This document shows positions 5,446 through 33,947 of a stretch of DNA of 34,527 bases, piece by piece. Source of the DNA: Flavobacteriales bacterium (GTDB lineage Bacteria > Bacteroidota > Bacteroidia > Flavobacteriales_F > PHOS-HE28); assembly GCA_020847755.1 (NCBI GenBank), contig JADLBK010000012.1:1-34527 (forward strand). The letters are read 5' to 3'. The notes under the pieces were generated by a model. The model was not told where the DNA came from. It searched no databases and worked only from the letters and a program-made list of their open reading frames with translations. Each line of letters starts with the position of its first letter. Positions within the stretch are counted from its first letter, which is position 1. The position numbers were made by a program, and so were the translations under genes.

Positions 5446-5509
5446 TAGGGCTCGAACCTAGACTCTTCTGAACCAAAATCAGACGTGTTGCCAGTTACAC
5501 CATCGGCCA
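5437..5509 (-). tRNA. tRNA-Gln (anticodon UUG)
   Basis: Cloverleaf of 73 bases. The acceptor strands are TGGCCGA (5503-5509 in complement) and TCGGCCA (5438-5444). The D-arm region reads GTGTAACTGGCAACAC. The anticodon stem is TCTGA/TCAGA with loop TTTTGGT, so the anticodon is TTG, read as UUG for Gln. The T-arm contains GGTTCGAGCCC. CCA is not encoded; after the discriminator A the sequence continues ACAGG, as is usual for Bacteroidota. The likely promoter lies about 50 bases upstream, and a terminator follows directly. Confidence 0.97.
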
Positions 5510-9134: not shown

Positions 9135-9746
9135 GTGGTGCCCGCCCGCCCGCCCTGGCCGCTGCGCGCGCTGATGCCGGGGGTGCTCTGGCGCATGCCC
9201 CCGCATGAGCGGGTGCTCTACCTCACCTTCGACGACGGGCCCGACCCGCAGCTGACCCCGTGGGTGCTGGACCAATTGGCCACAGCGGGCGCGAACGCCA
9301 CCTTTTTCTGCCGCGGCGATCGTGCCAGGGCCCGGCCCGACCTGGTGGAGCGCCTCAGCGCCGAGGGGCACGCTGTGGGCGGCCACACCTGGGACCACCC
9401 CGACGGCTGGCGGACCCCGCTGAGGCCCTACCTGCGCAACGTGCTGCGCGGCCAACGCGAGGTGGGCGGCACGCTCTTCCGACCGCCCTACGGCCACCTC
9501 ACCGCGGCGCAGCTCGCCGCCCTGAAGGGTCGCTTTCGCGTGGTGATGTGGGACGTGCTCTCCCGCGACTATGACCCCCGATGCAGCGCGCAGCAGTGCC
9601 TGGACCGCACCTTGAAGCACGCGCGACCAGGGTCCATCATCGTGTTCCACGACGTGCCGAAAGCCGCCGATCGGCTCACCGGCCTCCTCCCGCAGGCGTT
9701 GGCCCGCTGGTCGTCCGATGGCTATCGCTTCGCATCCCTTGCATAG
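9135..9746 (+). CDS. Polysaccharide deacetylase family protein (NodB-type)
   Basis: Carbohydrate esterase 4 (NodB homology) domain protein of up to 203 residues; it would remove acetyl groups from an N-acetylated glycan. The motifs are in order: TFDDGP near residue 31 (catalytic base and metal Asp), GGHTWDHP near 83 (metal His pair), RPPYG near 116, DVLSRDYDP near 140 and IIVFHD near 168. All expected residues are present. The GTG at 9135 has only weak support; GTG 9138 or ATG 9174 are alternatives and would still keep the whole domain. There is no signal peptide, so it may be cytoplasmic or reach the membrane another way. It lies four bases after the DUF2723 gene. Its 3' end overlaps the convergent rhodanese gene by 25 bases. 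Confidence 0.88.
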   Translation: MVPARPPWPLRALMPGVLWRMPPHERVLYLTFDDGPDPQLTPWVLDQLATAGANATFFCRGDRARARPDLVERLSAEGHAVGGHTWDHPDGWRTPLRPYLRNVLRGQREVGGTLFRPPYGHLTAAQLAALKGRFRVVMWDVLSRDYDPRCSAQQCLDRTLKHARPGSIIVFHDVPKAADRLTGLLPQALARWSSDGYRFASLA

Positions 9747-10135
9747 GGAACGGTGGGCATGCCCGCCTCCTTCCACGCGCCCATGCCGCCCACCAGGTCG
9801 TAGACCTCGGTGAATCCGAGCTCCCTGAGCTGCTTGCTGGCGCGGTAGCTGCGGCCACCCGCCGCGCAGTAAACGTACACGGGCTTCGTCTTGTCCAGCT
9901 GAGCGGCAGCGGCCTCCTTGAAGCCGCCGGCGTTGAAGTCGATGAAGCGCGCTCCGGTGATCACGCCGGTGGCCCACTCCTCGGGGGTCCGTACGTCCAC
10001 CACCTGGCCGGGCTTCTCGGCCATGACCTTCGCGAACCGGGCCGGGTCGCACTCCACGCCGGCCTCCTGCGCATGCAGGGTCACTGAGGCGAACAGGAAG
10101 AGCGGCGCGAAGAGGGGACGAAAGGATGTGTTCAT
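9722..10135 (-). CDS. Periplasmic rhodanese-like domain protein
   Basis: Single-domain rhodanese of 137 residues with a signal peptide (MNTSFRPLFAPLFLFASVTLHAQ), so probably periplasmic. VVDVRTPEEWATGVI is the CH2A-like region. The active-site Cys is residue 90 in the loop VYVYCAAGGRS, followed by YRASKQLRELGF and DLVGGMGAWKEAGMP, which end the fold. Rhodaneses carry sulfur as a Cys persulfide; single-domain exported forms are poorly understood. ATG at 10135 is chosen because it begins the signal peptide and lies two bases after the stop of the PorE-like gene. It is the last gene of an operon encoding a giant T9SS protein with about 60 Cys. A role in sulfur or thiol chemistry of that protein is only a guess. 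Confidence 0.87.
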   Translation of the reverse strand: MNTSFRPLFAPLFLFASVTLHAQEAGVECDPARFAKVMAEKPGQVVDVRTPEEWATGVITGARFIDFNAGGFKEAAAAQLDKTKPVYVYCAAGGRSYRASKQLRELGFTEVYDLVGGMGAWKEAGMPTVPYARDAKR

Positions 10136-10137
10136 GA

Positions 10138-12336
10138 TCAGGGTCGGATCTCGGTGACGGTGTACTCCACGCGGCGGTTCTCCGCATGCTCGGCCTCGGA
10201 GCACTGCACCCCGGGCACGCAGTGGTTCACCAGGCGCATGCCGCCGTAGCCCTTGGCGGTGACGCGGTCCTTCGGCACCCCCTTGGCCACGAACTGGTCC
10301 ACGATGGCCTGCGCACGCTTCTGGGTGAGCTTCACCTGCGCCTCACCATCGCCGCGCGCATCGCCGTGCACGGCCAGCTCCACACGCAGGGTCGGGTTCA
10401 CCTTCAGTCGCTCGGCCAGCTGGTCCACCTCGGTGCGCGCCACGGGGTCGAGCGCCAGGCTCTTGTCATCGGCCCACTTCACGTATTTGAGGCGCACCGG
10501 CCGGCCCACCTCCACGGGCTCGAAGCTGAGGTCGAAGGCCGCGTTGAGGTCGATGACGCTGTTGCGGATGCCGATCGAGGAGACCGACACGCTGAGGCTG
10601 TAATAGCCCGGCTTCTCGAAGAGCACCTCGAACTCCTCGTTGGCCTGCAGCCTGAAACTGAAGTCGCCCCCCTCGCCGGTCACCTGGCTCTCGGAATAGA
10701 AGCTGCTGAGGTTCACGACGCTCACGGTCATGCCCTCGATGAAGCCCAGCCGGTCCTTGTAGCGCACCGCGCCCCGCAGCCATACCCCGGCATCGGGCAC
10801 CAGGTGGATGTCCCGCGCCACGATCTGCTGGTTCTCGATCTGCTCGGTGCTGAGGTGCTGGCTGCCGTCGTATCGGCCCTTCATGCGGGCCACCACGCGG
10901 TACTCCTTGTCCTTCTGCACCCCGAACGAGTACTCACCGCGGGCATCGGTGCTGGTGCTGGCCAGCACCGCGCCGCTCATGTCCTGCAGCTCCACGACCA
11001 CATCGATCACCGGTGAGCCGCTCTCGTCGTCGATGACCACACCGGTGCACAGGAACCGCTGCTCCAAGGGGCTGTGCATCACGAAGGCGTAGATGTCATC
11101 GTCCCCCATGCCTCCGGGCCGGTTGCTGCTGAAGTACCCGTGCTTCCCCGTGGCATCGATGATGAAGGCCAGATCGTCCTTCGTGCCGTTCAACGGTGCG
11201 CCCACGTTGATGGCCGTGGTGAAGCGGTCGCCGTCGGCCGGAGGTGCGGCGAACACGTCGAGGCCGCCCAGGCCCGGATGCCCATCGCTGCTGAAGTACA
11301 GGGTGCCATCGGCCGCGATGAAGGGCGTCACCTCGTTGTACGGGGTGTTGATCACCGGTCCGAGGTTCTCCGGTTCGCCCCACTGCCCGCCCAGGTCGCG
11401 GCACACATAGATGTCGCTTCCCCCCAAACCACCGGGCATGTCGCTCACGAAGTACAGGCGCCTGCCATCGGGGCTCAGTGCGGGGTGGCCCACCGAGCAC
11501 TCGCTGTTGTTGTACAGGAAGGGATCCACCCCGCCCCACTCATTGCCCGTGCGCCGCGCCCGGTAGATCCCCAGGCGGGTGATGCCGTTGCGGCTCCGAA
11601 CGCTGCTGTTGCGGGTGAAGTACATGGTGCTGCCATCGGCACTGCACACGGCGGGTCCGTCGTGCAGAGCGCTGTTCACCTTGCCCTCCAGCAGTGCGGG
11701 GGCGCCCAGGGTCCCATCGGCCTGGCGCGTGGCGCGGTAAAGGTCCAGGAAGGGCTGGTCGTTCCAGGCCGCCCGCCGTTGGATGCCGACCTTCTCGTTG
11801 CGGCTGCTGGAGAAGATCACCTGGTCGGGACCGCACCAGGTGGCCGCCATGTCCGAGTACGGCGTGTTGATCTTCAGCGGCGTGATGGTGAAGCGCTCCT
11901 GCTGGTCGGTGAACTTGCGGGCGAAGCTGGTGATGTTGCTGCGCTGGGCCCCTCCTTCCGGTGGGCGCGTGGCCAGGTAGCGGTCCATCCATTCCTCGGC
12001 CTGATCGTATTTGCCATTGCTCTTCAGGGCCTGGGCGTAGGCGTACAGGTCACGAGGCTCACGGTTCAGGAACTTCACCACGATGGCATACCAGCGCTCG
12101 GCCTCCTCGGAGTTGCCCAGCTTCATGTTGCACTCGGCCAGGCGCTTGGCCACATGCTCGTTCACGGCGCCCAGATCGGCGGCGGCACGATACTCCTTCT
12201 CAGCGAGCGCGTAAGCCAGCTGCGCGAAGTGCAGATCGCCCGAGCGGATGCGCGCATCGGCGCCTCCTTGAGCCATCGCTGCCCTTGCCGGCAGCAGGGG
12301 CAGCACAAGCAGGAGGAACAGGCGGAGCGCGCGCAT
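10138..12336 (-). CDS. PorE-like protein: TPR, PD40 beta-propeller, CRD and OmpA C-terminal domain
   Basis: Exported protein of 732 residues with signal peptide (LFLLLVLPLLPARAAMAQ). The domain order is TPR-like helices (about 25-135), PD40/WD40-like propeller blades (about 155-400; ALSPDGRRLYFVSD, TLYFSSDGHPGLGGLDV and HGYFSSNRPGGMGDDDIY), a carboxypeptidase-regulatory-like beta domain (about 430-510), a second beta domain and an OmpA-like peptidoglycan-binding domain (about 620-732). The last has HGDARGDGEAQ...QKRAQAI and ends with ENRRVEYTV, keeping the Asp and Arg that hold diaminopimelate. This order matches PorE of Porphyromonas gingivalis, a T9SS component thought to link the machine to peptidoglycan. 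It lies three bases after a PorP/SprF gene and directly before the rhodanese gene. It may be a dedicated anchor for this operon's giant cargo rather than the core PorE; the sequence alone cannot decide. Confidence 0.9.
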   Translation of the reverse strand: MRALRLFLLLVLPLLPARAAMAQGGADARIRSGDLHFAQLAYALAEKEYRAAADLGAVNEHVAKRLAECNMKLGNSEEAERWYAIVVKFLNREPRDLYAYAQALKSNGKYDQAEEWMDRYLATRPPEGGAQRSNITSFARKFTDQQERFTITPLKINTPYSDMAATWCGPDQVIFSSSRNEKVGIQRRAAWNDQPFLDLYRATRQADGTLGAPALLEGKVNSALHDGPAVCSADGSTMYFTRNSSVRSRNGITRLGIYRARRTGNEWGGVDPFLYNNSECSVGHPALSPDGRRLYFVSDMPGGLGGSDIYVCRDLGGQWGEPENLGPVINTPYNEVTPFIAADGTLYFSSDGHPGLGGLDVFAAPPADGDRFTTAINVGAPLNGTKDDLAFIIDATGKHGYFSSNRPGGMGDDDIYAFVMHSPLEQRFLCTGVVIDDESGSPVIDVVVELQDMSGAVLASTSTDARGEYSFGVQKDKEYRVVARMKGRYDGSQHLSTEQIENQQIVARDIHLVPDAGVWLRGAVRYKDRLGFIEGMTVSVVNLSSFYSESQVTGEGGDFSFRLQANEEFEVLFEKPGYYSLSVSVSSIGIRNSVIDLNAAFDLSFEPVEVGRPVRLKYVKWADDKSLALDPVARTEVDQLAERLKVNPTLRVELAVHGDARGDGEAQVKLTQKRAQAIVDQFVAKGVPKDRVTAKGYGGMRLVNHCVPGVQCSEAEHAENRRVEYTVTEIRP

Positions 12337-12339
12337 GGG

Positions 12340-13272
12340 TCAGAAGTAGCGTGGTGAGATCGTCCGCCCCTTGGTGAACTTCAGGTCGTAGCTCAGCATC
12401 ACCTCGTGCGTGCCGGCGTTGTAGGCGCCCACTCGCGTGGTGGTGAGGTCGAAGGCGTAGCCCGCCCTGAACTGCTCGCTGAACTGATACTGCGCCATCA
12501 CGCCGAAGGCATTGCCCACGCGGTACATGCCGCCCAGCCAGATGCGCTCCCGCAGCAGGAGGTTCAGGTTCACATCCAGTGAAAGCGGCGCACCCGCCAC
12601 CGCGCGCAGCATCACCGAGGGCTTCAGCTTCAGGTCGCGGCCCACGTCGAACACCGCACCACCGAGCAGGAAGTAGTGGCGATCCTCCTGCGCGGTGGCC
12701 ACCACGGCGCTCTGTGCCTCGGTGAGGGTGTTCTGCAACAACTTGGGCGCCGAAAGGCCCACGTACCAGCGAGGCGCGTGCCAGAAGAGGCCGAACCCGA
12801 AGTTCGGCAGCGCCTTGCTGCTGATGCTCGCGGCGGACGGATCCACTTCCACGGTGCTCAATCCTGCGAGGTCGGCCTGGAAGAGGTTCACCCCGCCTTT
12901 CAGACCGAAGGCCAGGCGAGAGCGCTCGCCGGTGCGGATGCGGTACGCCACGTCCAGAAAAGCGCCGGTCTGCCGCGTCGGACCCACGCGATCATGCAGC
13001 ACGGTCCCACCCAGGGCCAGTCCGTTCAGCGGCAACGGGGAATGCAGCGTCAGGGTCTGCGTGCTGGGCGCCCCCTCGAAGCCCACCCACTGGTGCCGCG
13101 TGAGGGCCATGATCGTGAACACATCCGCACTGCCCGCGTACCCCGGATTGAAGGCCAGCGTGTTGAACATGTACTGGCTGTACAGGGGATCCTGCTGCGC
13201 ACGCACGCGACCGGCCACCACGCCCAGCAGGAGCAGCACGAAAAGGGCGTGGACGACGGAGCGGCGTTTCAT
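12340..13272 (-). CDS. PorP/SprF family T9SS outer-membrane protein (partner of the 2755-residue protein)
   Basis: Outer-membrane beta-barrel protein of 310 residues with a signal peptide ending at VRAQ. The family signature follows directly: QQDPLYSQYMFN, then NPGYAGS and HQWVGFEGAP. Alternating amphipathic strands run to the end, with the late THEVMLSYDL strand typical of the family. SprF of Flavobacterium johnsoniae is needed to export the adhesin SprB and, more generally, cargo with type B C-terminal domains depends on a SprF-like protein. Here the ATG overlaps the stop of the giant type B gene by four bases (ATGA). The two are thus very probably translated together and act as a cargo-partner pair. 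Which step it serves, translocation or retention, is not visible. Confidence 0.93.
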   Translation of the reverse strand: MKRRSVVHALFVLLLLGVVAGRVRAQQDPLYSQYMFNTLAFNPGYAGSADVFTIMALTRHQWVGFEGAPSTQTLTLHSPLPLNGLALGGTVLHDRVGPTRQTGAFLDVAYRIRTGERSRLAFGLKGGVNLFQADLAGLSTVEVDPSAASISSKALPNFGFGLFWHAPRWYVGLSAPKLLQNTLTEAQSAVVATAQEDRHYFLLGGAVFDVGRDLKLKPSVMLRAVAGAPLSLDVNLNLLLRERIWLGGMYRVGNAFGVMAQYQFSEQFRAGYAFDLTTTRVGAYNAGTHEVMLSYDLKFTKGRTISPRYF

Positions 13273-16200
13273 CGGTTCAGGTAGACGTATCCCTTGAGCG
13301 GTTCGCGACCGCCGCCCAGTTCGATGATGTAGTAGTACGTGCCGCTCGGCAGCTGACCCGAGAGGCTCGCGCGTTGCGAGGTGCCGTCCCAGACCACCGT
13401 GCTGTTGTCATAGCCCGCAGCGCTGTAGACCTCATCGCCCCACCGGTTGAAGATCACGACCGTGTTCCCCGGCCAGCCTTCGATGCCCGGCAGCTGGAAG
13501 GTCTCGTTCACCCCATCCCCGTTCGGCGAGAAGAGCCCCGGCACGAACACGTCGTCCTCGAAGGCGCAGGGGCTCACCCCCTCCACCAGTTGTGGCGAAC
13601 ATCCGTTGGCGTCCGTCACCGTGAACGCAAAGTCCTGGCTGGTGAGGATGGACGTGCTGGTGAATACGAAGGGCGCCGTGGCGGAAACCGCACCGTCGAG
13701 TCCGGTGACACTGTATGTGGACGAATCGCCGCCGCTGATGGTGAACTGCACGACGTAGGTGCGGTCCACTTCGTTGCAGATGCGCGTCAAGCCGCTTACG
13801 GTCACCCCTTCGAAGAGGGTCACCGATACGGTGGCCGAAACGGGCGCACAGCCCGGGATCTGCACCGTGTAGCGGAAACCGTAGGTGCCCGGTCCCAGCA
13901 GGGTGGTGTTCAGCGCCGCGCCCGTCAGCGTGCCGCTCGAGTTGAGCTCCGTCCACGTGCCGCCCACCAACGGCTGGCCGGCAAGGGCCGCGAAGAGGTC
14001 ATAGGCCGTTGCCGTGTTGCAGAGGGTGACGCTGCTGTCCGCCCCCGCACTGGCAGGCTGGTTCACGGTGATGGTCACCGTCGCCGTGGCGTTGGTGCAT
14101 GGCGCGCTCCCCTGGACCGTGTAGGTGTAGGTGCCCGGCACATCGGTCGCCGTTTCGAAGGATCCGTCGTGACCGGATCCCAAGGGGTTGGTCCAACTGC
14201 CTCCCGTCTCCGGGGTCCCGGTCAGGGCGTCGAAGAGGTCCACCGTACCGGCGTTCGCGCAGGTCTGCACCGTGGCGTTCCCACCGGCATCGGGCGCCGC
14301 CGCCACGTGGATGATGACGCCGACCGACACCAGTCCGCAGGCCACGGTCTGCACCTCGTAGGTGAACGGATAGCTGACCCCGCTCGGCAACTGGGCGGCG
14401 TTGAGGACGGAGCCGTTCAACTGCCCCGTACCCGAATTGTCGATCCAGGTGCCAGTCTGCACCGTGCCGACCGGCAGGGAGTTGAACAAGTCGTATGCTG
14501 CGTTGCCGCAGATGGTGTCGATGGCGCCCGTGCCGATGTCGATCCCGGCGGACACCTCCACGGTGACGGTGGTCTGGTCGTTCGGGCACGGGCTGATGCC
14601 TGCCACGGTGTACACAAAGGTGTAGGTGCCCAGACCCACCACCGTGGCATCGAACAGGCTGTCCGTGAGCGCGCCGGTCCCTCCTGGATCGGACCACCCC
14701 CCACCTGCATCATACGGGGCCTGCAAACCCTCGAAGAGGTCCTGCGCTGTCTCCGTCACACACACCGGCAGGGTGAGCCCGGTGCCCGCCTGCGGTTCGG
14801 GCACCTCGTTCACGATCAGGGTGGCGGTATCGTTCGCGCACGCTCCATCGCCTTCCATCACATACTGATAGGCTCCAGGATCATCCACGGCGGGGTCGTA
14901 GAGATCATCCGGTAGAAGCCCACCGTTCGGGTCCAGCCAGTCCCCCTGCGAGTCCGGGGAGCCACCCAACTGTCCGTTCATGACGAACGAGGCCTGGGAC
15001 GAACACACGGTGACGGCATTGTCCAACCCGGCGTTCACCGCTTGGTTCTCGGTGATGGTCACCGTGGCCTGGTCGGGGAAGCAGAACAAGGAGCCCTGCA
15101 CATTGTACACGTAAAGCCCGTCGTTGTGGATGTTGGGGTTGTATATGCCGCTGTAGGGCACATTGCCCGGTGCCAGCCAGGCACCATCCGTATCCGCCCC
15201 GGGAAGAAGGGTGATCAAGGCCACCAATCCGCCATCGCTGCACACGCTCAGGCTCGTGTCGGGTCCTGCGTACGGCGCGGCCTCCACGGTCATGGTCACC
15301 GTGGCCTGGGCCTGCGGGCAGTTGCCGATGGCCGGCACCGTGTAGGTGTAAGCCCCGGAGGTATCCACCGCCGGATCGAACTGTCCGCTGTGCGGCAGGC
15401 CGTCGGGGTCCGTCCATGTGCCGTTGGCATCCGGGCTGCAGCCGTTGGTGCTCAGGAACTGGATCAGCAGGAAGGGGTTGGCGTTGCTGCACACGGTCTG
15501 GCCGCTCGTGCAGCCCGCATTGGGACCCTCGAGTACATTGACCACCAGTCTGGCCGTGTCCCCTTCGCATGCTGCGGAAGGGGCCAGGATGTAGTCGAAC
15601 GGCCAGGCACCCACACCGGCCAGTGAGGCGTTGAACACTCCATTGACCATCGCGCCCGAACCACCCACATCCACCCAGGTACCGCCGGCTTGCGGTGTGC
15701 CCTGCAGCAGATCGAAGAGCGACACCAGGCTCTCGCTCTCACATACATCGGCCGCGCTGTCATCACCAGCATCGAGACCTTGCACCACCTGCACCGTGAC
15801 CGTGGCCGAAGCTGAGGTGCACGGGCTCGTACCGGTGACGGTGTACGTGAGATCGTAGCTGCCCGTAGGCACACCGGTCGCGTTCCAGATGCCGCCGGTG
15901 AGGACGCCCAAGCCGCTGGTGTTGGCCCACACGCCCCCAAGGTCCTCTCCGTTCAGGCCGGTGGAGAGATCCACCGCGCTGGCATCCACACAGGCGGCCA
16001 AGGAGCCCGGCTGTCCGGCGTTCGGGGCCGGCACCGTGGTGATCTGCACGGTCGCGCTCACCGTGGCGCAGGGCGCTGCGGCCGGGATCGTGTATACGTA
16101 GGCCCCCGGCGGATCGGTGGCCGGGTCGAAGTTGCCCGTGGGCACCGGTCCGTTCGGTCCGCTCCACGTGCCGCCCGGATCGGGCGAACCGTTCAGCAGG

Positions 16201-21536: not shown

Positions 21537-21554
21537 GGTCGGGCGCAAGGGGGT

Positions 21555-21562
21555 GCAAGGTA
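21555..21562 (-). promoter_or_regulatory. Candidate -7 element of the giant-protein/PorE-like operon
   Basis: The minus strand reads TACCTTGC starting 26 bases before GTG 21536, the same spacing as at aspS. It lies inside the frame that would be coding if GTG 21572 were used, so it favours the shorter start. The match to TAnnTTTG is imperfect and no -33 element is clear. Confidence 0.4.
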
Positions 21563-21671
21563 GCCAAAACACCCCTCGGAACGCCAGTCCAGCGCGGGTT
21601 TTCGCCCGGTCACGGGCTCGCTGCGACGAGCGGCTCGGGCGTGTGGACCTGTCGCCATCCTACGACGCTGG

Positions 21672-22616: not shown

Positions 22617-22620
22617 GGCT

Positions 22621-25600: not shown

Positions 25601-28600
25601 AGCCCGCTCACCTGCGGACCGCCATCCCCTGTGATCGGATCGGGCGACCAGTCGAAGGTGTAAGGTCCGATGCCGCCGGTGGGACCCACGGTGGCCGTGC
25701 CATCACATGCACCGGCGCAGCTCACGGGCGTGGACGAGAGGCCCGGCAGCAGCGAGGTGCCCGGTGCCACCACGGCCGTGTCGATCGTGATGCAGCCTGC
25801 AGCGTTCTCCACGGCCATGAAATAGCTGCCCGCACACAGGCCCGTCAGCACATTGTTGTTCTGGAGCAGCGTATCGCCCTGCGCATCGGTCCACGTCACC
25901 GTGCATGGCGGCAGCGAACAGACGTACTGCACGCTCACTTCACCGTCGCACGTGTTGCTGCAGGAGGTGCTGCCGTCGGTGACGGTGAGCACTTCGCCGT
26001 TCGCATCGGTCACGGGCACCACGAGGCTCGCGCTGCAACCGCCCGCATCGGTCACCGTCACCGTGTAGAGACCTGCGCACAGCCCTGCCAGCGATGGTGC
26101 GCTGCCTGCGGGAAGGCCGTTGCCATCGGTCCACTGGATGGTGTAGCCCGGTGTACCACCGGCGATCACGACCTCCGCCGTGCCGTTGCACACCTGGCAC
26201 TGGCTGGGCGTGCTGCTTCCCGAAAGCACCAGCGCGGTCGGCTCGGCGATGGTGAACACCACGGTGGTGTCGCATCCGTTCAGGTCGGCGATGGTGACCG
26301 TCCAATCCCCTGGGCAGAGATCGATCGCAGAGGAGCTGCCCTGCCCGTTGGGCGGCACGGGCTGCCAGAAGTAGGTGTAGCCCGGCGTGCCACCGACCGG
26401 GTTCAGCACGATGCTCGCGTCGCAGCTGCCCGGGCATCCTTCCGGCGAGATCACGGCCACGGGGTCGATGGGCGTGGGCGCCAGGATCAGCGCGCTCAGC
26501 TGCAGGGTGCATCCGCCCTGGTCCGTGATCAACAGATCATAGGCACCGGCGCAGAGCCCGGTGGCCTGTGGCCCCCCGTCACCGCCCGGCGGGTCGGGGG
26601 TCCAATCGAAGGTGTAGGGCGGCTGCCCCCCCACCGGGCCCACCGTGGCGGTGCCATCGCAACTGCCCGCGCAGGTCTCGGGCGTGCTGCTCAGGTTGGC
26701 CACGATCGGCGGCGGCGAGGCCACGACGGCCGTGTCGATGCTGATGCAGCCCGATCCGTTGGTCACCTGCACCAGGTAGCTGCCCGCGCACAGGTTGGTG
26801 GCCGTGTCCGTGGGCTGGCCAAGATCCACGCCGAGCGCATCCGTCCACAGCACCGTGCAGGGGGGGTCGCTGCACACGTATTGCACGCTCACTGAACCGT
26901 CACAACCGCCCGGGCAGCTGGTGAGACCGTTGGTCGTGGCCAGCATTTCCCCATCGCTGTCGGTGAGCACCACCGGCAACGAGAACAGGCATCCGTTGGC
27001 ATCGCTCACCAGCACGGTGTAGAGCCCGGCGCAGAGGTTGACCACGGCACTGTCCGTGCCGATGATCACACCGCCCTGCCCCGTCCACTGGAAGCTGTAC
27101 GGCGGTGTGCCCCCGGCGGGCTCCACCTCGGCCGCACCAATGCACTGCTGACACTGGCTCGGCGTGGTGGTGAGGGTGGCCGTCAGCGGCAGCGGCTCGG
27201 CCAGGATGAAGGTGGCCGTGGTGTCGCACCCGTTCGCATCCGTCACAAGCACCACATAGGTGCCCGGGCACAGACCGAAGGCGCTGTTGCTGCCATCGCC
27301 GTTCGGCGGGTCCGGCGTCCAGTTGAAGGAATAGCCTGGCGTTCCACCGTTCACGTTCAGCACCACGCTCCCATCGCATTGGCCATTGCAGGTGATGGGC
27401 GATACCGACGCGCCCAGGTCCAGGGGCGGCGGTCCGGTGATCAACACCTGCACGGTGGTGTCGCAGTTGAAGAAGTCGGCGATGGTCACCGTGTACACGC
27501 CTGCGCACAGGCCCGTGGCCTGAGGCGTGCCCTGGCCTCCGCCCGGAGCTGGTGACCACGTGTAGGTGTACGGCGCTTCACCGCCCGTGGGGCCCACCGT
27601 GGCCGTGCCATCGCAGGTGCCCGCACAGCTCACCGGTGTGGTGCCCAGGTTCGGCTCGATCGGCTGGAATGGCAGGATGGTGTAGCTCTCGGTGGTGTCA
27701 CAGCCCAGTGCATCGGTGATGGTGAGGCTGTAGGTGATGCCTGCGCAAAGCCCCGTGGCGATGTTGGTGCCCTGACCACCACCTGGTGCCGGCGTCCACA
27801 GGAAGGTGTATGGCGCACCGTTCCCACCCGTGGGGAAGGCCGCCGCACTGCCCGTGCACGGTCCATCGCAGGTCTCGTCGCCCCACTGCAGGCTCGACAC
27901 GATCGGGGGCGGCTTCACCACATTGAACGTCACCGTGGTGTCGCATCCGTTCACATCCGTCACCGTCAGGGCATACAGGCCGTCGCAGAGGCCCGTCACG
28001 CTACCCGTGCCTTGGCCGGTGCCAGGAGCCGGTGACCAGAAGAAGGTGTAGGGGCCGGTGCCACCTGTGGGCGTCGAGGTCGCCGACCCGCTGCAGGTCA
28101 GCGCGCAGATGCCATCCACCACCACGAGGCCCACGTCGATCGGCTGCTGGGGCAGCACACCGAAGGTGAGGGTGGTATCGCAACCGCCCGCGTCGCTCAC
28201 CGTGAGCACATAAGTGCCCGCGCAGAGGCCCGTGACGTTCGGCGTACCCTGCCCGCCACCCGGCGCTGGAGCCCAGGTGTAGAGGTAGCCAGGTTGTCCG
28301 CCGCTCACGGCCACGCTCGCCGTGCCGTCGCACGGTCCGTTGCAGGTCTCGTCCGTCACGGTCAGCACCGCGTTCAAGGCCGGCGGTGCCGGTACGTTGA
28401 TCACCAATACCGTATCGCACTGTGCCTGATCACTGATCACCACGGTCCAATCCCCGGGGCAGAGCCCGCCCACGTTCGCCGTGCCCGCGCCAACCGGGGG
28501 CACGGGCGTCCAATCGAACGTATACGGTCCCACGCCGCCCGTCACCCCGAGATCGATGGCTCCATCGCACACATCGGCGCAACTGGCCGGTGTCACCTGC

Positions 28601-31600
28601 GGCGTGGCCTGGATCCCGCTCGGCGTGCTGATCGTGAAGGCGATCGTGGTGTCGCACCCGTTCGCATCGGCCACCACCAGCGTGTAGGCACCGGGGCAGA
28701 GACCTGTTGCGTTCGGGGTGCCCTGACCACCGCCGGGGGCGGGGGTCCATACGTAGGTGTAGCCCGGGGTGCCCCCGCCCGCCGGGGCCGTGGCCGTGCC
28801 ATCGCATGCACCACCGCAGCTCGCCGGAATGGTCGCCAGCTGCACATCAAGCGGGTCCGGCGCATCGATCGTGATCGTCAGCGTGGTGTCGCAACCCACC
28901 GCATCCGTCACCAGCAGCGTGTAGTTGCCCGCGCAGAGCCCCGTGGCGTTCGGAGTGCCTTGCCCTCCGCCCGGCGCAGGGGTCCATGCATAGGTGTACC
29001 CGGGCGTGCCTCCGCTCACTGCGGCCGTGGCCGAACCATCGCACACATCGGCGCAGCTGGCATCCGTCGACGTCAGTTGCACATCCAGGGCCGGGGGTGC
29101 CTGCAGGTCGATCGTGAGCGTGGTGTCGCAACCTCCGGAAGCGATCGTCACGCTCCAGAGGCCCGCGCACAACCCCGTGGCCTGCGGTTGGCCCTGGCCG
29201 TTGGGCGGCTGCGGGACCCAGGTGTAGGTGTACGCACCGGTGCCGCCGGTGGGCGCCAGGGTGATGCTGCCGTCGCAGGAGGCCGAGCACACCGGCTCCA
29301 CCACGACCTCGTTGGGCAGGATGGCCGTGGGGGCGTTCACTGTGAAGGCGATGGTGCTGTCGCAACCGAGCGCATCGGTCACGGTCACCTGGTAGGGCCC
29401 GGCGCACAGGCCGGTGACGTTCGGCGTACCCTGTCCCGCACCCGGCGCGGGCGACCACAGGTAGGTGTAGCTCGGTGTGCCGCCCGTGATGATCACCCCT
29501 GCTTCACCGTCGCACACCCCGGGACACGAGGCGTCCTGCACGGTGAGCGAGAACTGCAGGGGCACCGCGTCGAGGATGGTGAAGGGCACGGTGACCGTGC
29601 ATCCGTTCGCATCCGTGATGAGCACGCTGGTCGGTCCGGCGCACAGGCCCGTCGCGTCCGCCGTACCCTGACCGCCGCCGGGTGCGGGCGTCCACACGTA
29701 GGTGTATCCGGGTGTGCCGCCGGTCACGGCCACGGACGCCGTGCCATCACACTGCCCGCCGCAGGTCACATTCGTCTGCGTGGGCACGGCATCGAGCGGC
29801 GGCGGGTCGGCGAGCACGAAGGCCAGGGTGGTGTCGCATCCGTTCGCGTCCGATACCGTGATGGAATACGGCCCGGCGCACAGCGCCGTGATCGCCGGCC
29901 CGGTCTGCCCGTTCGACCAGAGGTAGCTGTAGTTCGGGGTTCCGCCGGTGACCTGTACGGATGCGGCCCCATCGCACACACCGGCGCAGCTCAACGAGGT
30001 GGTGTCCAGCACAATGGTGAACGGCGGCGGCGCGGTGATCGCGAACGCGATCAGGGTGTCGCAGCCCACCGCGTCGGCCACCAGCAGCGTGTAGTTGCCG
30101 GCACAGAGGCCCGTGGCGTTCGGCGTGCCCTGGCCTGCGCCCGGCACCGGCGACCAGGTGTACGTGTACCCGGGCGTGCCCCCGCTCACCACCACGCCAG
30201 CACTGCCATCACAGGTGTTCGCACAAGTGGCGTTCGCCGGCGTCAAGGTGGCCAGGAGCGGTGGTGGCGAGGCGATGGTGAAGCTCACCAGCGTGTCGCA
30301 GCCCGTGGCCTGGTCGGTGATCAGTACAGTGCCGCTCCCGGCGCACAACCCGGTGGCCGTGCCGGTACCCTGTCCGCTTCCTGGCGTCGGGGTCCACTGG
30401 AACGTGAACGGGCCCACCGCCCCCGTCGGGGTGGCTGTGGCCGTAGCGTCGCAGGCATCGGCACAACTGGCCGGAGCGGTCACCAGGTTCGGCACGATCG
30501 GTGGCGGCGCCACCAGGTTGAACGCGATCAGCGTATCACACCCGTTGGCATCGGCCACCAACACCGTGTAGTTGCCCGCGCAAAGGCCGGTCACCTGCGA
30601 AGTGCCGTCCCCGGGCGGGGTGCCCGGCTCCCAGTTGTAGGTGTAGCCCGGTGTGCCACCCGTCACCGTCACCTCCGCCGTGCCGTCGCAATCGCCCGCG
30701 CAGCTCGGCGGCGCGCTCTGCAGCGTGGCTTCCAGCGCCAGCAACGTGATGCTGAAGGTGGTGTCGAACACACAGCCGTTGGCATCGATGATCTCCAACG
30801 TATTCACCCCCGCGCACAGCTGGGAGGGGTTCGGCACGGTCTCCGTCCCGTTGTTCCAGTTGTACTGATAGCCGAAACCCGTGCCGCCACCCGGGAAGGT
30901 GATCGCCGTGCCGTTGCAAACGTTGGCACAGGCCGGCGGATTGAGCCCGAAAAAGACCACACCCAGCGGCGGCGGCGGCGTCACCAGGATGGATGCGAAG
31001 CAGCCCACGTTCTGGCCCAGATCGGTGACGATCACCAGCTTGTTCCCCGCGCAGGTGTTCAACCACGGGAGGGACGTACCGGTGCCATTGGGTCCGCCCT
31101 GCCATTGGATCGCGAACGGCCCGATGCCGCCTTGGATGGAGACGGTCACCGCCGCATCGCACACCCCGTTGCAGCTCACCCCGAAGCCGCTGTAGTCGCT
31201 GGTCACCGTCGCATTCACCTGGAAGGGCGTCTGGCCGGCTCCTGTGCCACAGCTCACGGCCATGCGCATCAGCTCTTCCTGGCCCACCGTCGTGCCGTCC
31301 CAGCGCCGGGCCGTTCCGTTCACCAGAAGCGTCGTTGACGGTTCCCAGGCCACACGCTCGGCACCTTCCAGCCGGTCCAGCAGCACCGTGGCTCCCTCGG
31401 CCTTCAGACCGCCCGCTGCCCGCGGTCCGACGACGAGCGCTCCGGCCTTCAGGACACCGCCGTTCAACCGTAGTTCACCCCGCTCCAACCGCAGGGCGTG
31501 CGGCGCATCGATCGCCAGCGCGCTCAGCAGGTCCCAGCCGCCCGGGCCATCCAACACCACGTCGCTCGCCACCACCGCGCCGTGCAGGTCAATGACGGCA

Positions 31601-31998
31601 TCGCCGGCGCGGCCCGTGAGCTGCACACCACCCCGCACCTCCATCCCCGCATCACCCGCCATCACCCAGCCACCGGCGATCGCCACGCGGGCTTCCGGGC
31701 CTCCGCTCACGCGCACACGCGCCCCGCGCGCATCCACATGCAGCGAGCGGCAGACCACCGATCCTTCCACACGCACCGCGGCCGACCGCACGCCACCGAT
31801 GCGCACCTCGGTGCGTTCGTCCGGCACGCCGGCACCGCCCGCTCCATCCGGCGTGGCGGACCACATGCGGGCATCGCTCCAGCGGCCGTCACCGCCGGTC
31901 CAGTACAGGACGTCCTGCGCACTGGCCACCGCCCCCATCAGCAGGAGGGCGAGCAACAGTACCGGGCGGAAGAGCGTTCGGGGTCCGTGGTCCTTCAT
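22621..31998 (-). CDS. Giant SprB-repeat surface protein with T9SS type B sorting domain
   Basis: Predicted surface adhesin of 3125 residues, related in layout to SprB, the mobile gliding adhesin of Flavobacterium johnsoniae. It has a signal peptide (LLLALLLMGAVASAQ) and an N-terminal domain at about 29-260 that starts DVLYWTGGDGRWSDARMWS and is rich in short beta repeats, probably a beta-helix. Then come 33 SprB-type modules (261-2876; C-x-G-x-C-D-G, G-G-T-P-G-Y-T-Y-x-W, G-L-C-A-G-x-Y, D-A-N-G-C-D-T-T), two PKD/Ig-like domains (ADAGADQQVC and EAGPDRTIFL) and a type B C-terminal domain (IPSGFTPNGDGWNDAW, VEVYSRWGELLFQ, VGTYYYAIRL, ending LTVIR). It lies six bases after one PorP/SprF gene and four before another. 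Modules 17-28 form a higher-order repeat. An adhesin or gliding role is inferred; no ligand-binding site is visible. Confidence 0.95.
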   Translation of the reverse strand: MKDHGPRTLFRPVLLLALLLMGAVASAQDVLYWTGGDGRWSDARMWSATPDGAGGAGVPDERTEVRIGGVRSAAVRVEGSVVCRSLHVDARGARVRVSGGPEARVAIAGGWVMAGDAGMEVRGGVQLTGRAGDAVIDLHGAVVASDVVLDGPGGWDLLSALAIDAPHALRLERGELRLNGGVLKAGALVVGPRAAGGLKAEGATVLLDRLEGAERVAWEPSTTLLVNGTARRWDGTTVGQEELMRMAVSCGTGAGQTPFQVNATVTSDYSGFGVSCNGVCDAAVTVSIQGGIGPFAIQWQGGPNGTGTSLPWLNTCAGNKLVIVTDLGQNVGCFASILVTPPPPLGVVFFGLNPPACANVCNGTAITFPGGGTGFGYQYNWNNGTETVPNPSQLCAGVNTLEIIDANGCVFDTTFSITLLALEATLQSAPPSCAGDCDGTAEVTVTGGTPGYTYNWEPGTPPGDGTSQVTGLCAGNYTVLVADANGCDTLIAFNLVAPPPIVPNLVTAPASCADACDATATATPTGAVGPFTFQWTPTPGSGQGTGTATGLCAGSGTVLITDQATGCDTLVSFTIASPPPLLATLTPANATCANTCDGSAGVVVSGGTPGYTYTWSPVPGAGQGTPNATGLCAGNYTLLVADAVGCDTLIAFAITAPPPFTIVLDTTSLSCAGVCDGAASVQVTGGTPNYSYLWSNGQTGPAITALCAGPYSITVSDANGCDTTLAFVLADPPPLDAVPTQTNVTCGGQCDGTASVAVTGGTPGYTYVWTPAPGGGQGTADATGLCAGPTSVLITDANGCTVTVPFTILDAVPLQFSLTVQDASCPGVCDGEAGVIITGGTPSYTYLWSPAPGAGQGTPNVTGLCAGPYQVTVTDALGCDSTIAFTVNAPTAILPNEVVVEPVCSASCDGSITLAPTGGTGAYTYTWVPQPPNGQGQPQATGLCAGLWSVTIASGGCDTTLTIDLQAPPALDVQLTSTDASCADVCDGSATAAVSGGTPGYTYAWTPAPGGGQGTPNATGLCAGNYTLLVTDAVGCDTTLTITIDAPDPLDVQLATIPASCGGACDGTATAPAGGGTPGYTYVWTPAPGGGQGTPNATGLCPGAYTLVVADANGCDTTIAFTISTPSGIQATPQVTPASCADVCDGAIDLGVTGGVGPYTFDWTPVPPVGAGTANVGGLCPGDWTVVISDQAQCDTVLVINVPAPPALNAVLTVTDETCNGPCDGTASVAVSGGQPGYLYTWAPAPGGGQGTPNVTGLCAGTYVLTVSDAGGCDTTLTFGVLPQQPIDVGLVVVDGICALTCSGSATSTPTGGTGPYTFFWSPAPGTGQGTGSVTGLCDGLYALTVTDVNGCDTTVTFNVVKPPPIVSSLQWGDETCDGPCTGSAAAFPTGGNGAPYTFLWTPAPGGGQGTNIATGLCAGITYSLTITDALGCDTTESYTILPFQPIEPNLGTTPVSCAGTCDGTATVGPTGGEAPYTYTWSPAPGGGQGTPQATGLCAGVYTVTIADFFNCDTTVQVLITGPPPLDLGASVSPITCNGQCDGSVVLNVNGGTPGYSFNWTPDPPNGDGSNSAFGLCPGTYVVLVTDANGCDTTATFILAEPLPLTATLTTTPSQCQQCIGAAEVEPAGGTPPYSFQWTGQGGVIIGTDSAVVNLCAGLYTVLVSDANGCLFSLPVVLTDSDGEMLATTNGLTSCPGGCDGSVSVQYVCSDPPCTVLWTDALGVDLGQPTDTATNLCAGSYLVQVTNGSGCISIDTAVVASPPPIVANLSSTPETCAGSCDGTATVGPVGGQPPYTFDWTPDPPGGDGGPQATGLCAGAYDLLITDQGGCTLQLSALILAPTPIDPVAVISPEGCPGSCDASIVLNPVGGTPGYTYFWQPVPPNGQGSSSAIDLCPGDWTVTIADLNGCDTTVVFTIAEPTALVLSGSSTPSQCQVCNGTAEVVIAGGTPGYTIQWTDGNGLPAGSAPSLAGLCAGLYTVTVTDAGGCSASLVVPVTDANGEVLTVTDGSTSCSNTCDGEVSVQYVCSLPPCTVTWTDAQGDTLLQNNNVLTGLCAGSYFMAVENAAGCITIDTAVVAPGTSLLPGLSSTPVSCAGACDGTATVGPTGGIGPYTFDWSPDPITGDGGPQVSGLCAGVYTVHIVDQGTGCDTLVNVLILEPQPLSASAVVEDASCDAQCNGSIVVTVQGGTGAYTYAWAPVPANGDGTNAAFGLCAGSYDLLITDANGCDTLITYTIAEPPPLVLTASATPSECGQCIGTAEVEVAGGTPPYTFAWTLNGTPVGADSVVTNLCAGLYTATVQDANGCLAALLVPITDSNGEVVSTTDGITSCPGECDGEVSASFICSDPPCTVVWTDALGNDLNEPGTSLDSLCTGPYFIAVTNASGCITIDTATVVEPDPIVAQLSTTPVTCAGLCDGTATVGISGGVGPYTIDWSPDPINGDGTPQVTDLCAGTYDLTITDASGCSITVAVLILEPQPLTITAAEEPVSCNGACDASIVLTVAGGTPGYSFDWTPDPPNGDGTNAAFSLCAGSHAVLITDLNGCDTTLTFTVVDPPLLEAQLSTTDNLCFGDCAGTATVVLSGGVPGYTLTWSDAGGVILAQDSTFIEGLCAGDYTLVALDANGCTVTLPFTIGQGAAIDAGLLFTNETCFGPCDGTASVSPSGGAGGFTYLWQPEPGGGQGTPNATGLCPGNWTVTIADSLGCDTTVAFTILPFAPIVPNAVVTDVLCNGACDGTITVAPTGGFGNYGFSWSPVPPNGQGTASATGLCPGVWSLTITDAIGCDTTVTFTIQEPAPVQVTVDNIVPASCNTAADGSIAITIGGGVGGYTVLWAGPGGFSSSAEDIVQLFPGPYTVVVTDANGCSVSANAQVDPLVTVIADAGADQQVCSGALVTLDGSASTGATSWQWTDGQGTVVGTQPVLSLAGLAPGTYTYTLTVTDGPCSAQDQVTVEVWPSAFAEAGPDRTIFLNAQTELGDDPSGPPGSTFSWQPDSLLNDPTSANPLATPPGTTWFVLTVTTPDGCSAVDSVLVTVVPEVVIPSGFTPNGDGWNDAWQIDLIDLFPECEVEVYSRWGELLFQSVGYKEPWDGRYNGGLVPVGTYYYAIRLNHPDFPEPYTGPLTVIR
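23371..31218 (-). repeat. Thirty-three tandem SprB-type modules (coding)
   Basis: The array has 33 units over 2616 codons, a mean of 79 residues. Most carry three or four Cys at fixed places: a C-x-x-x-C pair at the start, one in LCAG and one in NGC. Short proline-rich joints (PPPL, EPQPL, APPAL) separate units. About 27 units contain a D-[S/T]-[A/I/L/V/M/T] tripeptide, usually directly after the last Cys (CDTT, CDTL). Confidence 0.9.
24559..27420 (-). repeat. Three tandem four-module superunits (~954 bp each)
   Basis: Modules 17-20, 21-24 and 25-28 of the SprB array are three copies of the same ordered set of four different module types, at 26467-27420, 25510-26466 and 24559-25509 (318, 319 and 317 codons). 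Type 2 has C-x-x-C in place of C-x-x-x-C and ends TDSDGE, TDANGE or TDSNGE. Type 3 has an extra Cys pair (VCSDPPC, VCSLPPC, ICSDPPC) and ends IDTAVV or IDTATV. Module 29 looks like the start of a fourth copy. Confidence 0.85.
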
Positions 31999-32004
31999 GG
32001 GGTC

Positions 32005-32943
32005 CTATTCGAAGATGGGGCAGCTGACGATGCGCTTGCTGGGGTCGACCGGTATGCAGGGGGTGATGCCCAGGATCACCTCGTGCGTGTTGCTGCTCGC
32101 GGCCTTCAGCCGTGAGGTGGTGATGTCGTACGCGTAGCCCACGGTGAAGAACTTCAGGAAGCCGACCTTCACCATGGCCACCACCGCATCCTGGTTGCGG
32201 TAGCTCACTCCGATGCCCAGCACCCGGTTCCACTCCAGCATGGCGTTGATGTCCATGGCCATGGGCGACCCGCGTGAGAGCTTGATCAGCGCGTTGGGGG
32301 TCACCGAGGTCTTGCGGCCGAGGCGCCAGCGGTAGCCTGCGCTCAGCATATAGTGCGGGCTCAGCCGCGAGTCGACCCCGATGCCGGGCACGCGGTTGTT
32401 CAGCAGCTGATGAACACTAAGACCGGCCCAGTACGTCCTGCTGTACAGCCAGATGCCGGGCGAGACGATCGGGAACACGAAGGTGGAGCTCCTGCTCGCC
32501 AGCACCGGGTCGTTGAAGTCGGCCACCAACGTCTGCCCCACATCGAACTTCTGTTGCTTCACCCCCAGGAAGGTGCCCATCGCCAGGTAGTGGTCCTTGT
32601 TCATGCGCACATGGTAGGCGTACGCCAGGTTGATCAGCGTATAGCCCAGCGGGCCCGTGTCGTCCGCCTCCACATAGCCGCCGATCCCGTGCTTGCCCTT
32701 CAGGTACGGCTTCTTCTTGTTGCGGAGGGTGGCGTGCACGCTGGCCCAGCCCGTGGTGGGCGCGTTCTCGAAACCGACCCACTGCTTGCGGAAGCCCAAC
32801 CGCACATCGATGCAGTCCTTGCTGCCCGCCACCGCCGGATTGATGTTGAAGTAGTTGAGCACGTTCTGCGAGTACTGCGGCACCTGCTGCGCCCGAACCC
32901 CCAGGGCGCACAGCACGACCGTCAACAGCAGCGTGGCCCTCAT
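32005..32943 (-). CDS. PorP/SprF family T9SS outer-membrane protein (partner of the 335-residue protein)
   Basis: Outer-membrane beta-barrel protein of 312 residues with signal peptide (MRATLLLTVVLCALGVRAQ). The family signature is QQVPQYSQNVLNYFNINP, then AVAGS and RKQWVGFENAP. Late strands include FFTVGYAYDITTS and THEVILGITPC. The protein ends PSKRIVSCPIFE; together with the Cys in GITPCIP this could close a short C-terminal loop by a disulfide. ATG at 32943 overlaps the stop of the upstream small type B gene by four bases (ATGA), so it pairs with that cargo by position. It also lies six bases before the 3125-residue giant and could serve both. The open frame further upstream is not part of this protein, because the signal peptide starts at 32943. 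Confidence 0.93.
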   Translation of the reverse strand: MRATLLLTVVLCALGVRAQQVPQYSQNVLNYFNINPAVAGSKDCIDVRLGFRKQWVGFENAPTTGWASVHATLRNKKKPYLKGKHGIGGYVEADDTGPLGYTLINLAYAYHVRMNKDHYLAMGTFLGVKQQKFDVGQTLVADFNDPVLASRSSTFVFPIVSPGIWLYSRTYWAGLSVHQLLNNRVPGIGVDSRLSPHYMLSAGYRWRLGRKTSVTPNALIKLSRGSPMAMDINAMLEWNRVLGIGVSYRNQDAVVAMVKVGFLKFFTVGYAYDITTSRLKAASSNTHEVILGITPCIPVDPSKRIVSCPIFE

Positions 32944-33947
32944 CGCACGATGGTGATGGACCCGGTGTAGGCGGCGGCGGATCCGCCCTCCCGGGTGTTG
33001 AGCACGATGTGGTAGTAGTAGGTCGCCATCGGCAGCCGCGCTCCGCCGTTGGTGCCGTCCCAAGGCTCGGCATAGCCCACATCGCGGAACACGCGCTGGC
33101 CCCAGCGGTCGTAGATCGTCACCTCGCAGGCCGGGTAGTCCCTGATGCCGTAAATGGTCCACGTGTCGTTGTACCCGTCGCCGTTCGGAGTGAAGGTGTT
33201 GGTGGGCTGTATCCGGCGGATCACCTCCACCAGCACCTCGTCGCTGTAGGTGCAGCCGTTCAACTGCGTGGTCACCGTGTAGGTCGTGGTCTCCGTCGGG
33301 TTGGCCAGTGGATCGGGGATCGCGTCGTCGCTCAGTCCGGCGTTCGGCGTCCAGGTCCAGGTGGTGCCGCCGGTGGCCTCCAGCTCCGCGAACTCGCCCT
33401 CGCCGATCTCCACATCCTCGCCTGCGCTGAAGTCCACCCCAACGATGTCCGCTCCTGGACCGCTGAGCGTGACCCCGAAGTCGCACTGCGCGCTGATCGT
33501 GGCCCCGTTGTCCGCCACCCCGCTCACCAGCACCCAGTACTGCGTGTTGGGCGACAGGCTGTCCGTGGTCATGGTGAAGTCCACCGAATCCTGCGTGCAG
33601 TTGCCCACCGCCGTGAAGCTGCCCGGCTGGCAGCTGCCGTCCCCGCTCAGCACGATCACGCTGAGCTCATTGTCCATGCCGGCCACCACCGGGCAGTCCA
33701 GACCGTTGATGACCACGTTCACCGCACCGCCCTGCGTGTTGGTCGTGAAGGTGTACCACAGCACGCTGTTGGTGCCCGGGCAGAACCCCGGGATGCCCAC
33801 CGCACCCGTATTGTTGCCTGTGAGCGGCTGCTGGGCGCAGAGCGTGAGGGCCGAGGCGCAATCGTCGTTCACCGGCTGGGCCCATGCCGCAGGCCCACAA
33901 GCCAGCAGAGGCAGCATCAACAAAGCGATCCGCAGCAGGGTGGACAT
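32940..33947 (-). CDS. Small secreted protein with T9SS type B sorting domain
   Basis: Predicted secreted protein of 335 residues, first gene of the upstream operon. It has a signal peptide (LLRIALLMLPLLACGPAAWAQ). An N-terminal domain starts PVNDDCASALTLC, with VLWYTFTTNTQGG and YWVLVSGV; this beta-sandwich type is frequent in Bacteroidota secreted proteins. A PKD/Ig-like domain follows (TTWTWTPNAGLSDD, TTTYTVTTQLNGC), then a type B C-terminal domain (TFTPNGDGYNDTWTIYG, VTIYDRWGQRVF, MATYYYHIVL, ending ITIVR). It is effectively a minimal version of the two giants, with no repeat array. ATG at 33947 gives the signal peptide, and a TACTTTCG element lies 38 bases upstream. It could be a tip, cap or accessory subunit for the giant in the same operon, but that is inference. 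Confidence 0.9.
   Translation of the reverse strand: MSTLLRIALLMLPLLACGPAAWAQPVNDDCASALTLCAQQPLTGNNTGAVGIPGFCPGTNSVLWYTFTTNTQGGAVNVVINGLDCPVVAGMDNELSVIVLSGDGSCQPGSFTAVGNCTQDSVDFTMTTDSLSPNTQYWVLVSGVADNGATISAQCDFGVTLSGPGADIVGVDFSAGEDVEIGEGEFAELEATGGTTWTWTPNAGLSDDAIPDPLANPTETTTYTVTTQLNGCTYSDEVLVEVIRRIQPTNTFTPNGDGYNDTWTIYGIRDYPACEVTIYDRWGQRVFRDVGYAEPWDGTNGGARLPMATYYYHIVLNTREGGSAAAYTGSITIVR

Follow-up and report, generated by a model that had tools for sequence, protein, structure and literature searches.

The question of how a single secretion system delivers certain surface proteins to a moving track while others are held in one place is still unsettled, and recent work traces the routing of such cargo proteins to a cargo domain and to the carrier of that cargo. 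The locus described here raises this question in a compact form. It belongs to the type IX secretion system (T9SS) and lies in an uncultured Flavobacteriales bacterium, on a stretch of 34,527 nucleotides with 67% GC (GenBank assembly GCA_020847755.1, contig JADLBK010000012.1, positions 1 to 34,527), called the window below. Three cargo proteins (C1, G1 and G2) are each followed by their own carrier of the PorP/SprF family (SprF1, SprF2 and SprF3), and a gene for a PorE-like protein closes the set. The main point, absent from an earlier note on this sequence, is that the three carriers end in three unlike tails. Such tails represent a short, readable candidate signal that can be tested by changing a few residues.

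The seven genes follow one another on the minus strand in the order C1, SprF1, G1, SprF2, G2, SprF3 and PorE-like, with a rhodanese gene next in this genome. The features are as follows, in window positions:

32940-33947, minus strand: C1, minimal Type B cargo of 335 amino acids (aa); PF13585 84 bits, TIGR04131 70.3 bits
32005-32943, minus strand: SprF1, PorP/SprF carrier of C1; PF11751 221 bits; own clade
32020-32058, minus strand: C-terminal tail of SprF1, bearing Cys296 and Cys308 (17 and 5 residues before the C-terminus)
22621-31998, minus strand: G1, SprB-repeat giant of 3125 aa with a Type B C-terminal domain (CTD); PF13573 609.7 bits in 28 stretches, PF13585 73.6 bits
21672-22616, minus strand: SprF2, carrier of G1, with a short variable tail without cysteine; PF11751 252 bits
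21573-21671, minus strand: gap of 99 nucleotides between SprF2 and G2
13269-21572, minus strand: G2, giant with a Type B CTD; PF13585 89 bits, TIGR04131 44.9 bits
12340-13272, minus strand: SprF3, carrier of G2; PF11751 271 bits; PorE-linked clade
12343-12354, minus strand: C-terminal PRYF of SprF3, kept in 24 of 24 loci
10138-12336, minus strand: PorE-like protein with TPR, PD40 propeller, CarboxypepD_reg and OmpA peptidoglycan-binding domains (Pfam)
9722-10135, minus strand: exported rhodanese, accessory; PF00581 70.5 bits

These assignments lie above the cut-offs used, which are 27 bits for PF13585, 35 for TIGR04131 (run on C1 and G2), 22.3 for PF11751 and 90.55 for TIGR03519. All three carriers exceed both carrier models, with 221-271 bits for PF11751 and 235-265 bits for TIGR03519. 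By its sequence, G1 is an SprB-type adhesin, combining SprB repeats with a Type B CTD. The spacing from cargo to carrier is -4 nucleotides for C1 and SprF1, +4 for G1 and SprF2, and -4 for G2 and SprF3, and the 99 nucleotides between SprF2 and G2 form the sole sizeable gap among the seven genes, which probably marks a putative start of a second transcription unit. The earlier note had read three Type B cargos from the sequence, each with its own PorP/SprF gene at these distances, and the scores and coordinates bear this out; domain scans likewise agree with its description of one minimal cargo, one SprB-repeat giant, one giant with another repeat, and a PorE-like protein in last place.

The first step towards an answer is to ask how firmly this arrangement is kept. 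Of 45 genomes of the genus, 23 were searched for an ortholog of the PorE-like protein. All 23, the window's own genome included, have one at 57% identity or more, and the best-scoring match outside the genus reaches 33%. Conservation was read in the DNA around 24 PorE-like places from these 23 genomes (two of them in genome G019; a second, contig-cut copy in G001, C194, was left out), with genes assigned by best BLAST match. The order G2, SprF3, PorE-like is found in all 24 loci, SprF2 precedes G2 in each of the 14 loci that reach that far, and C1, SprF1 and G1 are in place in the 11 of 11 loci that reach C1, so that all seven genes are ordered there. The other ten loci stop inside G2 at a contig end. 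In effect, this is an ordered three-cargo T9SS locus, kept throughout the examined part of the genus at 43-95% protein identity and built from known kinds of parts. Because the family scores are high and the gene order is conserved across the genus, a chance assignment of families and a chance arrangement are excluded.

Two operons that are neighbours in relatives had been named beforehand as a point on which the idea of one dedicated system stands or falls, and in the genus they are neighbours in 14 of 14 loci spanning the junction. Their adjacency could, in principle, reflect common ancestry only, without any joint function. One of the ten loci ending in G2, that of G022, has the four-gene first operon intact and inverted, beyond the polysaccharide deacetylase gene and the DUF2723-like gene next to it (L208:3623-16017); either the operons are separable, or this contig was put together wrongly in the assembly. 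In addition, genomes of four further families (G025, G028, G029 and G036) have a G1-like giant, 2283-3215 residues long, together with an SprF2-like carrier, and neither C1-SprF1 nor the second operon was found beside these pairs in the DNA fetched. Both observations would suit shared ancestry. The order has nevertheless survived at the protein divergence given above, and G019 holds two complete copies of the seven-gene set, so adjacency through ancestry only is considered unlikely, although it deserves to be kept in view.

Several further observations concern the same comparison. The two sets of G019, on contigs 12 and 24 (L004, L025, L026 and L005), are diverged, and G001 has a second PorE-like copy, cut by a contig end. 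In G002, the G2 gene lies in two overlapping frames, the result of a frameshift or of an assembly error. Spread by plasmids was considered with SprF2 as the query and set aside, as only distant SprF relatives, below 60% identity, were found in 9 plasmid records. The rhodanese, which the earlier note had counted as a part of the system, is present in 7 of the 24 loci, with G021 ending too near for judgement, and this rules it out as a core component.

The second step concerns the link between each cargo and its carrier. In a tree of 115 carriers, built by a quick method with SprF1-3 sampled from four genomes, SprF1, SprF2 and SprF3 each form their own clade with full support, and the idea of one dedicated system, which the earlier note had also staked on SprF clades that track their cargos, passes on this point too. 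A within-genome Mantel comparison of cargo CTD distances with carrier distances gives r = 0.77 for 58 pairs from 9 genomes, and none of 5000 within-genome permutations reaches this value (the largest is 0.49). These 58 carriers come from a total of 93; for 34 no cargo CTD was found upstream, and one below 150 bits was left out. Judged from the sequences, cargos and carriers diverge together, as carriers of particular cargos should, and the binding of cargo itself is predicted. The CTDs of C1 and G1 are mutually closest within the genome, the nearest carrier to SprF1 is SprF2, SprF2 is equidistant from SprF3 and SprF1, and SprF1 and SprF2 fall inside one larger clade. Because these CTDs and these carriers group together, a duplication origin of the first two cargo-carrier pairs is suggested.

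On this basis, a working scheme for the locus can be proposed. Each cargo would be exported through the T9SS by means of its Type B domain and would stay on its own PorP/SprF barrel, and the periplasmic C-terminal tail of that barrel would set the fate of the cargo. Through its tail cysteines, SprF1 is predicted to become disulfide-linked to GldK of the track, by which C1 would be towed along as the track moves. The PRYF ending of SprF3 is predicted to dock on the PorE-like protein, which would hold G2 static on peptidoglycan. SprF2, with neither feature, would keep G1 in the outer membrane, where G1 would have no fixed partner on the inner side or would act together with C1-SprF1. One locus would thereby supply mobile, unanchored and wall-anchored surface proteins, a reading to which we give a probability of roughly 0.58. 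It starts from what is observed directly, namely the gene identities, their order and its conservation, the tails themselves and the co-divergence of cargos and carriers. The function of the carriers and the two modes of anchoring have support in published studies of relatives, and we infer that these particular tails act in the same way.

The tail cysteines of SprF1, at positions -17 and -5, are shared by all 12 loci examined and by every one of the 120 homologs listed (the best 120 of 414). SprF2 has a variable end, and its tail is free of cysteine in all 14 loci; the tail of SprF3, also free of cysteine, ends in PRYF in all 24. SprF1 has the two tail cysteines of a track-linked SprF; SprF2 and SprF3 do not. 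In F. johnsoniae, the twin-cysteine tail of SprF bonds with Cys343 of GldK; SprB requires this tail to move in a sustained way and is exported without it (PMC12635249). GldK of G004, G010 and G017 scores 572-587 bits (cut-off 350), and a cysteine stands at the place of F. johnsoniae Cys343, as located by spacing, in all three of these genus sequences and in four of four outgroup sequences. GldJ reaches at least 365 bits in 37 of the 45 genus genomes and exceeds the curated cut-off in 23, SprA and GldH are present in 4 of 4 genomes, and GldM is present in 3 of 4.

An internal disulfide, stabilizing the tail of the barrel and unrelated to the track, would also account for two cysteines. Their spacing is unlike the published one, and their invariance in the same set of homologs is what an internal pair would produce as well. 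In F. johnsoniae, however, an internal disulfide of the SprF tail is itself proposed as the donor for the bond with GldK (PMC12635249), and the partner cysteine in GldK is retained, which leaves a purely structural role doubtful.

Other carriers and track genes of the genus may be mentioned at this point. A PorP/SprF protein whose tail bears two cysteines (C...CPxF), and for which no cargo was found alongside, adjoins gldJ in four genus genomes (L119:3761-4906 on contig 255 of G000, and also L129, L138 and L148), and in the outgroup loci L155, L162, L170 and L180 a counterpart carrier adjoins a gene with the same cysteine-containing motif. This protein is a candidate for a second track-bound carrier. 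Two GldM genes, about 5.5-5.7 kb apart, are present in both G010 and G017.

The third step concerns SprF3 and the PorE-like protein. This protein scores 337 bits with the NCBI PorE model (NF052230), below its cut-off of 600, and its OmpA domain matches PDB 6top. A better and unlinked match occurs elsewhere in G010, G004 and G017 (473-529 bits, also below the cut-off), so that the PorE-like protein of the locus is ruled out as the PorE of the genome. The earlier note had called this gene private to the system. Its presence is confirmed; its exclusivity did not hold, since sets of cargo, SprF and PorE-like genes also occur at C62, C49 and C221 of the same genome. Nor is a PorE-like gene beside a cargo and an SprF gene undescribed in itself, because F. 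johnsoniae is reported to have five operons of this make-up (PMC12618676).

A census of carriers shows how the PR ending is distributed. It comprised 212 non-redundant carriers, of which 206 were judged and 6, too near a contig end, were set aside. Set against the PF11751 places of each genome, the carriers numbered 12/12 in G000, 12/12 in G010, 13/13 in G004, 15/15 in G017, 7/7 in G028, 8/8 in G025, 6/7 in G024, 11/14 in G036, 3/5 in G031, 11/27 regions in G029 and 0/6 in G034. When a PorE-like gene lies directly downstream, 97 of 99 carriers end in PR-aromatic or PRLF, the two exceptions ending in APRF and HPRYYY; without such a gene, the ending is found in 2 of 107. Cysteine in the last six residues shows the opposite distribution, with 1 of 99 carriers that have a PorE-like neighbour against 35 of 107 that do not. 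An OmpA domain is present in 85 of the 97 PorE-like neighbours of these PR-ended carriers, absent in 10, and cut in 2, as scored with a purpose-made model with which Pfam agrees for the six of ten negatives that were scanned.

All three cargos might instead be moving gliding adhesins, with a PorE-like protein that assists in assembly and anchors nothing. The presence of GldJ, GldK, GldH and SprA in the genus and the gathering of three cargos in one locus would suit such a view. It is opposed by the lack of tail cysteines in SprF2 and SprF3, by the OmpA peptidoglycan-binding domain of the PorE-like protein, and by the static behaviour of the PorE-linked Fjoh_3952 (PMC12618676), which together make it very improbable.

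The reading of three different fates has its own difficulties, and the following points weigh against it. The SprF1 cysteines are spaced as C-X11-C, and the published pair as Cys-Xaa-Cys. The window's own genome, which is 83% complete, yielded no GldK above the cut-off, apart from a piece of one where a contig ends, and no GldM; gliding of this uncultured genus is presumed. It is the SprB-like giant that one would obviously take for the gliding adhesin, and SprF2, which carries it, has no cysteines. As to the PR ending, ten of the OmpA-less PorE-like neighbours stand beside PR-ended carriers, all in Marinilabiliaceae-type loci, and because of them the ending does not by itself signify a wall anchor. 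The link between the PR ending and PorE is largely a matter of one clade, each trait changing 5 times on the tree, and a test of independent pairs had too few pairs, so that statistical independence of the PRYF-PorE link was not obtained. A held-out set of 60 carriers from nine further families (the first 60 of 81 rows), read with a broader ending pattern than the first set, includes 8 with a PorE-like neighbour. Only 3 of them fit and lack cysteine (SPRYF, SPRL and SFRFL), and two of the five misfits have a tail cysteine together with an OmpA-bearing PorE-like neighbour. Among the 52 without such a neighbour, 6 have an R-aromatic ending, four of these being [NT]VRFL, like a gldK-adjacent carrier.

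The five held-out carriers that do not fit all have an SprF score below 200 bits. The held-out set rules out a universal tail rule. Because distant carriers break it, the rule covers the close relatives of SprF3, not the whole PorP/SprF family. Within these limits, what the PR ending accompanies in a PorE-like protein is its TPR-propeller part, and a wall anchor is to be expected only where an OmpA domain is present, as in the window. The probability given to three different fates was left unchanged, because the PorE-like protein of the window does have its OmpA domain and the GldK models were confirmed.

A much wider view would treat the tails as an address code across the Bacteroidota, in which cysteines would direct a carrier to the moving track, an R-aromatic end to a PorE-like protein, and fused SPOR or OmpA domains, as in some relatives, to the wall. 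The locus would then be a kit deploying mobile, unanchored and wall-fixed proteins, in which the small C1-SprF1 pair would ride on the track and serve the SprB-like giant, itself of fixed length, as a sled. This extension is speculative and rather improbable, and our estimate of it was lowered slightly because of the ten PorE-like neighbours without an OmpA domain.

Some carriers outside the locus touch on the same theme. A fused C-terminal SPOR domain is found above the cut-off on the distant carriers L168, L242, L252 and L253, and just under it on L228 and L254; a fused C-terminal OmpA domain is found on L256 and L262, and L192 has TPR repeats instead. Judged from sequence, such ends fit the idea of the carrier end as a fixing site, and no statement of a tail or SPOR signature in SprF was met among the titles and abstracts found in literature searches. 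Carriers beside gldK are probably core PorP; most of the eight examined end in R-F-L or similar, and no PorE gene adjoins them. Four genus carriers that follow an OmpA-less PorE-like gene are cysteine-tailed. A rule coupling OmpA-less PorE-like genes with cysteine tails was considered and rejected, as these four loci, with the gene upstream, fit it and the ten Marinilabiliaceae-type loci, with the gene downstream and a PR-ended carrier, break it.

The cargos themselves provide a further view of the locus. C1 consists of a signal peptide, a beta-rich part of about 220 aa and the Type B CTD. Its AlphaFold2 (AF2) model has a pLDDT of 82, and a fold search with it gave low TM-scores only, to Ig/MAM and other proteins. 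G2, 2767 aa long from the first GTG and about 2755 aa from a later start, contains some 30 repeats, each about 80 aa long and most of them with two cysteines, and no further Pfam or NCBIfam match beyond the Type B CTD at the E-values used. A three-repeat AF2 model (pLDDT 94.9) matches Ig-like structures, which rules out a new fold. The seven best Foldseek matches of the repeats are fragments of GhpA of Aureispira (E from 3.7e-10). Because the Ig domains of titin and NCAM align with the repeats equally well, the models support only a common Ig-like fold for G2 and GhpA; GhpA also did not come up in the profile search of PDB sequences. Sequence relatives of SprF1, SprF3, C1 and G2 in the PDB yielded nothing credible.

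Both giants hold their length. Over its aligned part, G1 differs in length by a net -8 to +2 residues in all but one of 11 loci, with 2851-3125 residues aligned at 52-88% identity, and G1 of G004 differs by +61 residues at 46% identity. For G2, the net difference is -24 to +28 in 12 of 15 loci, and the remaining three differences (+87, +89 and -68) are each near the length of a single 80-aa repeat. The genus has a second family of giants, next to a C62-type paralogous triad, with open frames of 3246-3279 residues in the 14 loci whose frame is not cut by the locus start. The constancy of G1 and G2 seems unusual for repeat adhesins, in our own judgement. Length held over thousands of residues while about half of the sequence has changed suggests that reach matters.

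Around the locus, the upstream neighbour is the start of a glycine--tRNA ligase gene, and downstream lie the polysaccharide deacetylase and a large membrane protein which, from its appearance, we take to be a DUF2723 protein. Other minus-strand features of the window are a secreted protein of about 253 aa (333-1094), the end of which resembles a Type A T9SS signal by eye and which has no NCBIfam match; an M48 peptidase gene overlapping a DUF898 membrane protein gene (2972-5040), an arrangement also seen in L057 and L064 and probably one unit; and a tRNA-Gln (TTG) gene (5436-5509). The nearest named relatives of the lineage are metagenome-assembled genomes, mostly labelled Flavobacteriales.

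Comparison with known systems shows which parts of the locus have counterparts. Among the closest is sprCDBF, the gliding operon of F. johnsoniae, and the four-gene first operon may simply be equivalent to sprC-sprD-sprB-sprF, with the second operon as a common cargo-SprF-PorE triad alongside. This correspondence, the main threat to novelty, is a serious though minority possibility. In favour of it, sprCDBF is an operon in which SprB is followed by SprF (PMC5879114), the order remF-remG-sprC-sprD-sprB-sprF is found in F. psychrophilum (PMC9723704), SprC moves on the track, which would fit C1 (PMC12635249), and the four other families have G1-SprF2-like pairs without C1-SprF1 in the DNA fetched. 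The covered passages of these sources, however, hold no statement of SprC as a Type B cargo or of SprD as a PorP/SprF barrel, the two operons are joined in all loci spanning them, and SprF2, on which the SprB-like giant depends, is without the track cysteines. In both systems, an SprB-repeat Type B giant precedes a PorP/SprF carrier of its own, one carrier of the locus has two cysteines in its C-terminal tail, and GldJ and a GldK with the partner cysteine occur in the genus. Here, in contrast to sprCDBF, the twin-cysteine carrier is paired with a small cargo, its cysteines are spaced by 11 residues instead of 1, and a second giant with a PorE-linked carrier follows.

The Fjoh_3952-3951-3950 set of F. 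johnsoniae (cargo, SprF-like, PorE-like) has the same order as G2, SprF3 and PorE-like. Fjoh_3952 is statically anchored while SprB and Fjoh_4750 move, and anchoring via PorE is proposed by the authors (PMC12618676). Unlike that set, the one described here has a giant of Ig-like repeats and is joined to an SprB-type operon. In Porphyromonas gingivalis, PorP binds both PorE and the cargo PG1035, the binding place on PorE being only suggested (PMC9143113). The chain of cargo, barrel and peptidoglycan-binding protein is alike, as are the kinds of domains, and the PorE-like protein here is a paralogue. GhpA, the T9SS-secreted grappling-hook protein of Aureispira (PMC11205867), is also a giant, and the likeness shown between it and G2 is one of Ig-like fold.

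Loci of Marinilabiliaceae (L073, L079, L080 and L081; Carboxylicivirga and Saccharicrinis) likewise hold three Type B cargos and three carriers in one stretch, with one PR-ended carrier beside a PorE-like gene and one with two tail cysteines. They differ in that the two sets stand tail-to-tail, about 4 kb apart, their PorE-like protein has no OmpA domain, and the cysteine-tailed carrier follows a larger cargo. What is new in the present locus is the combination of parts that are themselves of known kinds, together with an unexpected pairing, in which the cysteine-bearing carrier goes with the small cargo and the carrier without cysteines goes with the SprB-like giant.

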